A stretch of DNA of 64,000 nt from Maribacter orientalis (lineage in GTDB: Bacteria > Bacteroidota > Bacteroidia > Flavobacteriales > Flavobacteriaceae): assembly GCF_900109345.1 (NCBI RefSeq), contig NZ_FNZN01000003.1, positions 1-64,000 on the forward strand, given 5' to 3'. The position numbers and the translations under genes are program-made. This document shows, piece after piece, positions 1 to 2,950 of the stretch; the stretch's first letter is position 1; every line of letters begins with the position of its first letter. The notes beneath the pieces were generated by a model. It was not told the origin of the DNA. It worked only from the letters and a program-made list of their open reading frames with translations, and did not search any database.

Positions 1-193
1 AACGTCCCAGCTATGGCAAGTAGGGCGGGTGATAAGCACTTATCTTTCCGCCAAGCCCATAGCCAAAGTTTTTGTATTTAGTTTTTATTTAATCTAAAAG
101 CCAAATTAAAAGATTTGGCGGACTTCACAGACACGCCCAAGCGTTTAGATTCAGAACTTACCGCCCTATTTGCTATAGGTTTTGTTAGCATAC
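1..193 (-). repeat. attC-like imperfect palindrome
   Basis: The outer arms pair 1-28 with 161-186; they share GGGCGG/CCGCCC, a CTAT/ATAG segment and AAC/GTT ends. Nested inside are TCCGCCAA (47-54) with TTGGCGGA (115-122), a short hairpin GATAAG/CTTATC (31-36/39-44) and AATCT/AGATT (91-95/111-115). On the minus strand the order is a core ending in AAC, a long variable stem-loop region, then GTT, as in attC sites. At about 190 nt it is long for attC. The right core GTATGCTAAC (193-184) is the exact reverse complement of the core beside the recombinase. Confidence 0.5.
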
Positions 194-194
194 G

Positions 195-866
195 TTATTT
201 TTGGTTTATTATTCGGACAAATGTTTCGTGTAAATAGATACGCCTTAATTCGTTTCCTTTCTTTTTATTAAAAATCAATATTTCAAATTCGGTTTCTGGT
301 ATTAAGTCCTTTAATGGTCCAGCTAACATTTCTGATTCGACTTTCGCTAGGGAATCCAAATAGTTCGTTTTTGAAGATAAAACCAAATTTCCAATTATTA
401 CTTTAGCTTGATTCAGAGTTTCGTTTTTGGAATTTTGAAAGTAATTACTTCTCTTAATTCCCTGATTTTCGTCATCAAGGTCATATGAAAATCCGTAAAT
501 GCTATCATTGGTAATTATAGCCCCCTTTTTTACAAAATCATTTTCAAAATTCGAATTAGTTGAGCGTTGTTCTATAAAAACAAGAGAGTCTAATTCCTTA
601 AGGTTTATTTTTAAACTCGAAAATATTTGAGAAAGTCTTTCAGCTCTTTTGTTGTGGTTTTCCTTTGCTTGAAAAAGTAATTCTTCTTCAGGACTTCTTC
701 CACTTTCAAGTTTGTACACAATTGTTGTGTCAATATATTTTTTTACATAATTTTCATCTTTGTAAACTTTCCAATCGTCTTCAAATCGTTCAGCGTAGAG
801 TTCCTTTATGTTCTGTCCTTTTGCAAAGGCACAGAGAAAAAATAATATGAACGGAATTTTTTTCAT
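195..866 (-). CDS. Secreted protein of unknown function, cassette-borne
   Basis: A 223-residue protein with an N-terminal signal peptide (MKKIPFILFFLCAFAKG), so probably exported. The start at 866 is chosen because the signal peptide begins there; an upstream in-frame Met at 881 would lie inside the recombination core. The mature part is rich in charged residues and Asn, with no motif I recognise, no cysteine cluster and no membrane segment. The gene fills the space between two recombination-like cores almost exactly and has no obvious promoter of its own, which suggests it travels as a cassette. Function unknown. Confidence 0.7.
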   Translation of the reverse strand: MKKIPFILFFLCAFAKGQNIKELYAERFEDDWKVYKDENYVKKYIDTTIVYKLESGRSPEEELLFQAKENHNKRAERLSQIFSSLKINLKELDSLVFIEQRSTNSNFENDFVKKGAIITNDSIYGFSYDLDDENQGIKRSNYFQNSKNETLNQAKVIIGNLVLSSKTNYLDSLAKVESEMLAGPLKDLIPETEFEILIFNKKKGNELRRIYLHETFVRIINQK

Positions 867-869
867 AAT

Positions 870-908
870 GTATGCTAACAATTGGCTAAGAGTACCTGGG
901 TACTCTTA
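870..908 (-). other. Candidate primary recombination site (attI-like) with perfect hairpin
   Basis: The core GTTAGCATAC (minus strand, 879-870) sits between the recombinase stop and the cassette gene. Directly beside it is a perfect 10-bp inverted repeat with a 2-nt loop (887-896/899-908, TAAGAGTACC...GGTACTCTTA). On the plus strand a T-run follows at 912-918, so the hairpin could also act as a terminator against plus-strand transcription. Its position at the junction of recombinase and first cassette is where an attI site would lie. No experimental basis. Confidence 0.4.
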
Positions 909-926
909 TATCTTTTTTGTGAACAC

Positions 927-2054
927 CTAATCTAATGGATTTTTTATACTTTCGAAAGTGTTCGTGGCAACATGAGTGTAAATTTCTGTTGTTTTTGTTG
1001 AACCATGTCCTAATAGTACTTGTATTTGTCGAATGTCTGTACCTGATTCTAATAGGTGAGTGGCAAAACTATGTCGTAATACATGAGGTGTTACTACTAT
1101 CCTAATTTTAGCTTTTTCTGCTGCAGTTTTTACAACTTTCAACACGCTAACTCCGCTATATTTATTTCCATTATTTCCCTCAAAAAGATACACTTTTGGT
1201 TCATATTTAGTATAGTAGCGTCGAAGATCATGGAGCGCTGTTTTTGATAATAAAGTTACTCTGTCTTTATTCCCTTTCGAATTTTCAACTCGAATTAGCA
1301 TCCGTTTACTATCAATATCACTCAATTTAAGATTTAGAAGTTCACCGCGTCGTAAACCTGAACCGTAAAGTAGCTGAACTATACATCTATGTTTAATATT
1401 GTTGGTGCTTTCAATGATTGAAAGTATTTCTTCTTTTGAGATTACTGTGGGTAGTTTTGATTCTTTTCTAGGTCGTTCTATTTCATAAAAACGGTTTGGC
1501 ATGTCCAAAACAATTTCATAATAGAATTTTATAGCATTAATTGCTTGATTTATATAAGAATTTGAATATTCCTTTTGAATAAGATTTTGAAGGAAACTTC
1601 TAATATCATTTTCATTAAGTTCTTTTAGTTTTTTATTGTAATGGTGATTTATGAATAGCTCAAAAAAAGTTACATAAGTTTTAACGGTACTGTTGGCATA
1701 CCTTTTAAGTTCTAGTTTTAATAAATATTCTTCTGGGCAAAGTCTATAACCTGGCGTAGTAACTCTACTTCTAAACCATTGCACATCTAATGTTTTGTTA
1801 TGGGTATTAATTGGTCTATTAGTAAAAAATTTATGGTAGTTTATCCATACCGCTCCTTTGAACGTATTAAACACTATACCCAAGTTCGCTTTGGTATTGG
1901 GTATATAAGCCATATTATATTGTTGACTCCATTTAGGGTCGGGGAGTCCTTTAATTAAGTTCTGTATCAACTTATCTGGCGTGAATTTGATACCGATCAT
2001 CTTTACGTCTTTGATCATCAAATGATACAGGGTTATGGACTTTAGAGAATGCAT
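927..2054 (-). CDS. Tyrosine recombinase, Bacteroidota integron/Xer-like
   Basis: A 375-residue site-specific DNA recombinase. Residues 1-80 form an extra N-terminal region, about 105-195 the SAM-like core-binding domain and about 200-370 the catalytic domain. Visible catalytic residues are R235 (GSGLRRGELL), K260 (NSKGNKDR), H324 and R327 (HVLRHSFATHLL), H350 (LLGHGSTKTT) and the nucleophile Y359 (IYTHV). It ends in KNPLD, reminiscent of the SPLD end of integron integrases, but it lacks the IntI-specific insertion before the HxxR box, so by motif it is closer to XerC/XerD. It abuts a cassette-like gene with attC-like ends, in the same orientation. The start at 2054 keeps the N-terminal extension that I recall in related flavobacterial recombinases. 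Confidence 0.88.
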   Translation of the reverse strand: MHSLKSITLYHLMIKDVKMIGIKFTPDKLIQNLIKGLPDPKWSQQYNMAYIPNTKANLGIVFNTFKGAVWINYHKFFTNRPINTHNKTLDVQWFRSRVTTPGYRLCPEEYLLKLELKRYANSTVKTYVTFFELFINHHYNKKLKELNENDIRSFLQNLIQKEYSNSYINQAINAIKFYYEIVLDMPNRFYEIERPRKESKLPTVISKEEILSIIESTNNIKHRCIVQLLYGSGLRRGELLNLKLSDIDSKRMLIRVENSKGNKDRVTLLSKTALHDLRRYYTKYEPKVYLFEGNNGNKYSGVSVLKVVKTAAEKAKIRIVVTPHVLRHSFATHLLESGTDIRQIQVLLGHGSTKTTEIYTHVATNTFESIKNPLD

Positions 2055-2098
2055 ATGACAAGTCTAATGAAATTCTCAACTTATAGCTGGGTGTTAAA

Positions 2099-2132
2099 CG
2101 TTTGTAAGCGTTTATTGTCGTTTGTAATCGCT
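2099..2132. repeat. Two direct repeats upstream of the recombinase
   Basis: CGTTTGTAAGCGTT (2099-2112) and CGTTTGTAATCGCT (2119-2132) match at 12 of 14 positions with start-to-start spacing of 20 bp. They lie 45-78 bp before the recombinase start. Such phased repeats could bind a regulator or the recombinase itself. No palindrome is evident and the role is unknown. Confidence 0.4.
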
Positions 2133-2164
2133 TAAATCATACTATTTATAAGGAATAAATAAAC

Positions 2165-2950
2165 TTACAGCGATTTTAATAATCCACCATCAATAGGCAG
2201 GTTTATACCTGTAATATAGGCCGCATTATCAGAGGCTAAAAATGCTGCTAAGTAGCCATATTCTTTTGGGTCGCCTATACGCTGTGCCGCCACCCTCGAT
2301 TCCATTTCTTTTCTAACTTCACTTTGGGCAATACCTAACTGCTCGGCTTTTTTAGCATTTAGTTGTGCAATACGGTCGGTGTCGAAATAACCGGTAAGAA
2401 CATTATTAACGGTAATATTATATTTACCAACATCGGTTGCCAATGATTTTGCCCAAGTAACTACTGCAGCTCGTATGGAGTTTGATAATGCTAAATACGA
2501 AAGCGGCTCTTTTACCGAAACAGATGCCACATTGATAATGCGCCCCCAATTGTTTTCAATCATATGTTTTAAGGCCAATTCTGTAGTGAAAACAACTGTT
2601 TTAAAGAGTAAGTCGAACGCTTCTTGATAATCGCTAACTTTTTTTTCGAGTGCATTGCCTGCTGCCGGACCTTGAGTGTTGTTTACCAAAATATCAACGG
2701 AATTATGTTCGAAATAATCGGTTATAATGTTGCGATATCCGTGAAAATCATTGAAATCTACTACTAAATATTGATGCCGTTGACCTTCGTCTTTCGGTAG
2801 CTTGGCTACAATGTGTTGTAGTTTTTCGGCACTATGAGACATAAGGGTTACACTTGCTCCACTTGCTGCCAACTGTTGTGCAATTGCCTTGCCGATACCA
2901 TCACTACTGCCACCAACCAATGCTTTTTTATTTTTTAGAGATATGTTCAT
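2165..2950 (-). CDS. SDR-family protein lacking the YxxxK active site
   Basis: 261 residues with a Rossmann fold of the short-chain dehydrogenase/reductase type. The cofactor loop VGGSSDGIG (12-20) replaces the usual TGxxxGxG, ILVNNTQGP matches the NNAG strand, and the Ser of the active site is present in NVASVS. Where YxxxK is expected the sequence reads LSNSIRAAV, so the catalytic Tyr and Lys are missing. This fits the divergent subgroup described as resembling beta-ketoacyl-ACP reductases but without a perfect catalytic tetrad; substrate and even oxidoreductase activity are uncertain. A cupin gene lies 75 bp upstream in the same orientation, probably co-transcribed. Confidence 0.85.
   Translation of the reverse strand: MNISLKNKKALVGGSSDGIGKAIAQQLAASGASVTLMSHSAEKLQHIVAKLPKDEGQRHQYLVVDFNDFHGYRNIITDYFEHNSVDILVNNTQGPAAGNALEKKVSDYQEAFDLLFKTVVFTTELALKHMIENNWGRIINVASVSVKEPLSYLALSNSIRAAVVTWAKSLATDVGKYNITVNNVLTGYFDTDRIAQLNAKKAEQLGIAQSEVRKEMESRVAAQRIGDPKEYGYLAAFLASDNAAYITGINLPIDGGLLKSL

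Follow-up and report, generated by a model that had tools for sequence, protein, structure and literature searches.

An integron-type gene-capture system in Bacteroidota that very probably uses a Xer-like recombinase instead of IntI

Can gene cassettes be captured by a tyrosine recombinase that lacks the IntI insertion? This question is raised by the first 64 kb of contig C11 (NZ_FNZN01000003.1) of Maribacter orientalis, whose genome comprises 4.16 Mb in 26 contigs. This stretch is referred to here as the window, and its position 1 is the contig start. The minus strand of positions 1-2054 carries, in order, a tyrosine recombinase, an attI-like site, one cassette and an attC-like hairpin that reaches the contig edge (Table 1). 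The definition of integrons includes a tyrosine recombinase with an IntI-specific additional domain (relevant passages of PMC9668308 and PMC9024848). We conclude that the locus very probably belongs to an integron-type gene-capture system driven by a Xer/XerA-like tyrosine recombinase and not by IntI. That cassettes are captured is almost certain, and a mechanism acting on their folded bottom strand is likely.

An earlier note, made from the letters of the window, had described a recombinase with the full catalytic set including Y359, and a cassette unit with a core 3 nt before the ATG, a stop 1 nt before the inverse core and a terminal palindrome. All of these elements were found where it had placed them, the palindrome measuring 186 nt; the attI-like repeat at 887-908 is an element that the note did not contain. 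The 10-nt core pair by itself is not unusual, as GTT-N7/N7'-AAC pairs 200-3500 nt apart occur eight times in the 64-kb window and one other pair is also marked by an A after the first core and a C before the second. Core pair and palindrome occur together once in the window, at this cassette. Relative to shuffles, positions 1-193 folded with z-scores of -4.0 on the minus strand, the fold that the note had proposed to examine, and -4.3 on the plus strand. An Rfam search of window positions 1-2200 gave no match. The note had also taken the core for a repeated sequence, which it is not: GTTAGCATAC has five sites in the 4.16 Mb, compared to seven for a reversed control pattern. The framing core pairs that it had suggested looking for do exist, but seven of their nucleotides differ from cassette to cassette, and a search for repeated GTTAGCATAC therefore fails although the system is real. 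The N-terminus of the cassette protein resembles a signal peptide, as judged by eye, and the protein matched no Pfam family above cut-off. A search of the 36 genomes of the genus at E <= 1e-5 detected the cassette gene in the M. orientalis genome alone; the note had held that the same gene fixed beside the recombinase in relatives would speak against the idea.

The contig start at position 1 precludes the upstream extension that the note had proposed. A palindrome search of the M. orientalis genome, however, revealed relatives on other contigs at a spacing of ~0.6-1.2 kb. Contig C13 (5.6 kb) is a cassette array, C19 (7.2 kb; six chained in L069) carries an unbroken chain of six cassettes with 7/7 core pairing, and C8 carries a second recombinase, 76% identical to the first, followed by an attI-like site and cassettes on its strand. 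With a further array on C12, the cassettes and palindromes whose absence the note had regarded as damaging to the idea are thus present. Pairing is imperfect in places, at 6/7 in one C13 cassette and 5/7 in one C8 cassette. Two of the own-genome arrays (L065:5230-5579 and L070:11470-11816) end in the same insertion sequence (IS)-like, helix-turn-helix sequence, at the contig end. Palindromes related to attC, with zero or one unmarked strict cassette, also lie in L067 (C15, ~53-57 kb) and L068 (C10, ~10 kb) and are perhaps decayed arrays.

To be counted as strict, a cassette had to show 7/7 complementarity between its cores (GTT+7 nt against 7 nt+AAC), a palindrome, and the A after and C before the core. 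Palindromes were located with a motif-free finder, an earlier regular expression having matched only two sites. The scan of 107 sources (the window and L065-L170), 52 of which contributed cassettes, yielded 168 distinct cassettes and 72 chained junctions. The longest open reading frame (ORF) lay on the array strand in 158/168 cassettes and on the opposite strand in eight, two having no ORF; it started a median of 26 nt past GTT and covered a median of 93% of the cassette. The proteins were diverse, with 157 clusters among 163, and one of the eight own-genome cassette proteins scanned exceeded a Pfam cut-off, that of a domain of unknown function. Core matching within the same cassette was also measured for 73 consecutive palindrome pairs located downstream of recombinases in 42 loci. 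The mean was 4.27/8, compared to 2.32 in 2000 shuffles (maximum 2.86), and 27 of the 73 pairs matched at 7/8. The anatomy, cassette-specific pairing, orientation and variability of the arrays, as well as the covariation and break points described below, are visible in the sequences themselves.

Position relative to the recombinase was scored in 42 loci, each of at least 11.6 kb. Downstream of the recombinase (229,684 nt), 90 strict cassettes were on the recombinase strand and none on the other strand, and none were found upstream on either strand (420,000 nt). This agrees with the same-strand layout described in the note and, together with the chained cassettes and covarying hairpins, with the integron-like cassette logic that it had recognised. 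A Xer-like chromosomal recombinase lying by chance beside unrelated palindromes, such as terminators or repeats resembling repetitive extragenic palindromes (REP) or miniature inverted-repeat transposable elements (MITE), would be compatible with the XerA score of this recombinase (223.9 against a cut-off of 220) and with the eight randomly arising GTT-N7 pairs in 64 kb. Such an accident has almost no probability given the 90:0:0 distribution by position and strand, the covariation, the chaining of the cores, the precision of the breaks and the variability of the genes. Equally improbable is the suggestion that the palindromes are the ends of transposable elements carrying single genes. Some arrays do contain or end in IS-like or IS genes (by eye in C8 and C13; also L241), and ISVsa3 adjoins tet(X5). 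Transposons and MITEs have terminal inverted repeats at both ends with a target duplication. However, each strict unit has a hairpin at its 3' end only and carries a different short gene, which mostly has the orientation of the array, and downstream of a single recombinase one unit directly adjoins the next at GTT.

The attC-like sites had discrete lengths (~122 and ~186 nt, a difference of ~62 nt) despite their varied sequences, with 85/168 in a 120-129-nt class and 66/168 in a 180-199-nt class. Predicted stems were paired in 92.9% of cells for 70 non-redundant short sites and in 96.1% for 50 long sites. Compensatory changes were observed at 12/13 stem pairs of the short class and 12/19 pairs of the long class; in the latter they affected 8/11 pairs of the main stem, the remaining three of which scarcely vary. 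Beyond the A/C mark, the outer stem continued with successive pairs in 166, 156 and 139 of the 168 sites, then in 51 and 19. Two unpaired places on the gene strand of the long class were near-fixed as A opposite C (50/50 and 48/50), and one in the short class was A in 70/70 opposite C in 67/70. In the bottom strand, G.T wobbles take the place of these A.C oppositions, making that strand more stable. It was the more stable strand in the inner arms of 164/168 sites, in 98/103 palindromes unselected on cores (same loci, overlapping set), and in 160/168 sites with the cassette ends joined, a set selected on the A/C mark. Integrons recombine the folded bottom strand of attC, and the inner-arm stability is consistent with the same choice here.

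Next to the recombinase, an inverted repeat of ~20 bp was found a median of 16 nt past the stop codon and was followed after 3-7 nt by GTT in 62/75 cases. Repeat arms of at least 7 bp were present in 75/93 distinct regions, compared to a mean of 29 and a maximum of 39 in 50 shuffles. In 58 locus pairs, which were chosen at >= 85% likeness over the 30 nt ending in GTT and are not independent, these 30 nt were on average 95.6% alike and the following 30 nt 37.6% alike, the latter falling below 50% in 49/58 pairs. This suggests that the attI adjoining the recombinase is the insertion point. In L101, L084/L151 (one genome) and L085, the recombinase is preceded by the same gene as in the window and followed by other cassettes, which is the variability that the note had proposed to look for in orthologous loci. 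L084 and L085 have the attI and the upstream gene in common, and their cassettes diverge from GTT onward. The contigs of L114, L128 and L159, like the window at positions 1-3, stop exactly at the GTT of an attI or attC, a weak hint that the sequence beyond might vary among cells. From a table of 72 rows, five non-ends (L036, L038, L048, L057 and L062) and two repeated contigs were removed; 5/65 contig ends stop in GTT, where ~1 is expected, and the window is itself one of the five. The statistics being weak, we set this argument aside.

The catalytic residues R235, K260, H324, R327, H350 and Y359 were invariant in 25 aligned sequences (the window recombinase and 24 relatives). The spacing from KGxKxR to HxLRH was 58 aa in 45/48 ORFs measured, compared to 100 aa in 28/28 IntI measured, and the IntI insertion of ~42 residues is missing from the window recombinase, in line with the note. 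The extra N-terminal domain reported there also held up: the first 105 aa had no Pfam match, and in an AlphaFold2 model of the recombinase (mean predicted local distance difference test 80.3; predicted template modelling score, pTM, 0.55) residues 1-98 were scarcely covered by PDB fold matches. The cut-off of the XerA model, NF040815, was passed only narrowly. The recombinase is not universal: 8 of 35 further genomes from the genus, two of them incomplete, gave no match at E <= 1e-30, and there are two copies in its own genome, two in G018 and three in G001 (identity >= 62%). It is thus not a single-copy conserved chromosomal Xer.

Could this nevertheless be an ordinary integron with a divergent IntI? 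The cassettes, attC-like hairpins, attI and GTT cores are all integron-like, the IntI model TIGR02249 matches with 210.8 bits, and a weakly supported branch (84/53) places the recombinase clade beside IntI. Cassette-specific core complementarity, which defines integron cassettes, is found here as well as in arrays beside true IntI, where 6/16 consecutive pairs in nine loci matched at 7-8/8 (5/9 in L227 and 1/4 in L222). However, the TIGR02249 score is below the cut-off of 265, the motif spacing is mostly 58 aa rather than the 100 aa of IntI, and the recombinase family falls outside a 100/100 clade formed by 24 IntI from the phylum (VchIntIA was not in the tree). Moreover, GTTRRRY, the consensus of integron cores, fits just 14/168 cores. 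A divergent IntI is therefore improbable, and a Xer/XerA-like recombinase remains the preferred driver. Since the cassettes, hairpins and insertion site are integron-like and the recombinase is not an IntI, we use the name integron-type system with a non-IntI recombinase.

Table 1. Features of the recombinase-cassette locus in the window
Feature	Position	Strand	Remark
Tyrosine recombinase, 375 aa	927..2054	-	R235/K260/H324/R327/H350/Y359 catalytic; without IntI insertion
Extra N-terminal domain, residues ~1-98	1761..2054	-	predicted b-b-a-b-b-a-b
attI-like inverted repeat TAAGAGTACC-CA-GGTACTCTTA	887..908	-	18 nt past recombinase stop
GTT, inferred insertion point joining attI and cassette	877..879	-	58 attI pairs compared
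5' cassette core GTT-AGCATAC-A	869..879	-	pairs with 3' core of own cassette
Core GTTAGCATAC	870-879	-	3 nt ahead of cassette-gene ATG
Cassette gene, 223 aa	195..866	-	single gene of window cassette
3' cassette core C-GTATGCT-AAC	184..194	-	complementary to 5' core of own cassette
Inverted core GTATGCTAAC	184-193	-	1 nt past cassette-gene stop
attC-like palindrome AAC...GTT, 186 nt, long size class	1..186	-	folding, relatives in own genome, class covariation
GTT closing attC at contig edge	1..3	-	place where next cassette would begin

Relatives of the system are common in Bacteroidota. Recombinases with arrays were found in many Flavobacteriaceae loci, and also in one bin each labelled Prolixibacteraceae (L166) and Fermentibacterota (L164; match over residues 117-375), although these bins may be contaminated. 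A relative at E <= 1e-90 was present in 98/395 Bacteroidia genomes, and 17, own included, scored above 530 bits. Arrays also accompany some distant relatives, such as those in L201, L204, L217 and L090; several tandem cassettes in L201 have an identical core, GTTGTAGTGCA, and resemble cassette duplications. The family is not uniform and not every relative has an array. A XerA-like group from the same genus (L205-L209) is 40-44% identical to the window recombinase over residues 113-375. The arrays, recombinase spacing, tree and attI data uphold the idea, raised in the note, of a separate Bacteroidota cassette-capture system.

Antibiotic resistance genes were also found as cassettes. When plasmids were searched with the recombinase, the records matched, at least 5000, included Acinetobacter plasmids. 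Two plasmids, p29FS20-1 (A. baumannii) and pHH1107 (uncultured bacterium), carry a shortened relative matching residues 144-375; downstream of it come, in this order, an attI-like repeat, the core GTT-ATGTGCC-A and the gene tet(X5) or tet(X3). The gene in the place of 'xerD' (TnpF) in these plasmids is this shortened relative, and the junctions with attI-like repeat and tet(X) cassette start are at L240:5353 and L242:5880. Matches to the attI-tet(X) junction came from 62 plasmid records and in 50 of these extended over >= 80% of the junction, and three shorter matches among those listed start at GTT or one base earlier. The Bacteroidia genome G458 carries tet(X2) in a chained array, with the same 5' core as tet(X3)/tet(X5) and, at the 3' end, a complementary core and hairpin. 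The tet(X) cassette thus begins with the same GTT core in a Bacteroidia genome and in Acinetobacter plasmids. The 60 kb surrounding the G458 array contained a XerA-like recombinase and none of the array type.

The resistance cassettes recur in different surroundings. The 1330-nt tet(X2) unit is 99.8-100% identical to that of G458 in six Bacteroidota plasmids and 92.6% in a seventh; an eighth plasmid (L258) has a tet(X2) unit with one core base altered. Across the chromosome and seven plasmids, the left neighbours of the unit are of five kinds and the right neighbours of six, switching at GTT. A 1032-nt aadS unit (99.8-99.9%) has three different left and right neighbours in three loci, and the sequence to the left of aadS in L255 is the same as that to the left of tet(X2) in L253. 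L257 and L259 share a 1020-nt catB unit (99.4%), and a cassette in L255 contains ere(D); the cassettes with tet(X), aadS, catB and ere(D) are located in L250:10682-11889 and L253-L260. Unlike most cassette genes, ere(D) (L255:2370-3823) and catB (L257:2115-2956 and L259:2980-3821) are annotated opposite to the cassette orientation. With the tet(X2) attC as query, a distant-mode search of DNA gave 14 plasmid records, 13 at >= 95%, and at most one new attC. For tet(X4) of the E. coli plasmid L249, known here from annotation only, likeness to the tet(X3) query starts at position 315 or later, inside the gene, among the rows listed.

Collectively, these results suggest the following mechanism. The recombinase would act on one folded strand of the attC, the cassette hairpin, and recombine it with the attI just downstream of its own gene, joining the two at GTT. 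Circular, probably promoterless genes would be inserted next to the recombinase and on its strand, and exchange between two attC sites would excise cassettes and shuffle their order. The predicted substrate is the folded bottom strand, whose outer stem would run uninterrupted through GTT, seven cassette-specific bases, the G.T wobble and ~3 more pairs. The inner stem would hold further wobbles where the gene strand has A.C oppositions. Single-strand folding, the choice of strand, the exact cut within GTT, activity and recombination are what we infer from the sequences.

Several points weigh against this interpretation. Recombination itself was not observed, and the evidence for attI as the insertion point is comparative. 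Only 0-3/8 core positions matched in 33 of the 73 palindrome pairs; 19 of these 33 were more than 1000 nt apart, compared to 7 of the 27 pairs with seven matches, which suggests that part of them reflect missed sites, and decayed cores, such as those at 6/7 on C13 and 5/7 on C8, are likely to account for others. The second unpaired place in the short hairpin class is less uniform than the first. Because the A/C mark was a selection criterion for the 168 cassettes, only the inner-arm test of strand stability is free of that selection. The attI repeat is AT-rich, and shuffles alone gave 7-bp arms in an average of 29/93 regions. The pTM of the recombinase model is modest. Among distant relatives (L229-L238), strict cassettes were found in just 2/10 loci, with none in L230-L232 and L234-L238 (of which L232, L236 and L238 are short), and there were none near the XerA-like group L205-L209. 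As for tet(X), no complementary 3' core with up to two mismatches was found for tet(X3)/tet(X5) in L242, and the sole match in L240 has two mismatches and falls inside the annotated estT; lacking a convincing 3' core, tet(X) is probably no longer a complete cassette in these two plasmids. Its present spread is attributed to ISCR2 in the relevant parts of PMC8635130 and PMC7530245.

The system shares with integrons cassettes that mostly carry one short gene, a 3' hairpin in each cassette of an array, core pairing within the same cassette, an inferred GTT insertion point adjoining the recombinase, a predicted bottom-strand hairpin, and variable arrays. It differs from them in a recombinase that is outside the IntI clade, lacks the insertion and has an extra N-terminal domain, and in the placing of recombinase and cassettes on one strand. 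Further differences are a GTT-N7 core with the A/C mark that is mostly not GTTRRRY, an attI with a ~20-bp inverted repeat, and conserved A.C (bottom-strand G.T) positions. The window recombinase resembles XerA in scoring just over the model cut-off, and differs from Xer proteins in its N-terminal domain, its variable presence, its more than one copy in some genomes and its linked attI and arrays. The xerD-tet(X3)-res-ISCR2 module resembles the system in that, in two plasmids, its 'xerD' is a shortened relative of the recombinase and is separated from tet(X) by an attI-like repeat and the tet(X) cassette start, whereas the published account of its mobility, in the relevant parts of PMC8635130, PMC7473080 and PMC7530245, is ISCR2.

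In the parts of the open-access literature covered, with preprints and most subscription papers outside this scope, we recognised no description of such a system, and IntI-based searches probably overlook it. For the 'integron-like' subgroup of Smyshlyaev et al. 2021 (PMC8138268), the passages concerned treat the insertion as indispensable to the function of integrons and mention no arrays for members without it, and both that paper and PMC9668308 state that the IntI insertion is necessary for integron recombination. The part of PMC7494873 that deals with tet(X) reports no common context between Flavobacteriaceae and Acinetobacter/Enterobacteriaceae, and the words cassette and integron do not occur in its main text. 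Whether XerD helps to move tet(X) is a question left open in the relevant part of PMC7473080.

Together, these results point to what is likely a second integron lineage, one of Bacteroidota with probable members in a few other phyla, that recombines hairpin cassettes without the IntI domain. The same lineage would be the native home of the tet(X), aadS, catB and ere(D) cassettes, with tet(X3)/tet(X5) having reached Acinetobacter as the first cassette at its attI, beside a recombinase remnant annotated as xerD. The system would thus offer an answer to the question of the part played by XerD in the movement of tet(X). More broadly, a large family with comparative signs of the same reaction without the IntI insertion may make the origin and the minimum of the integron mechanism testable.

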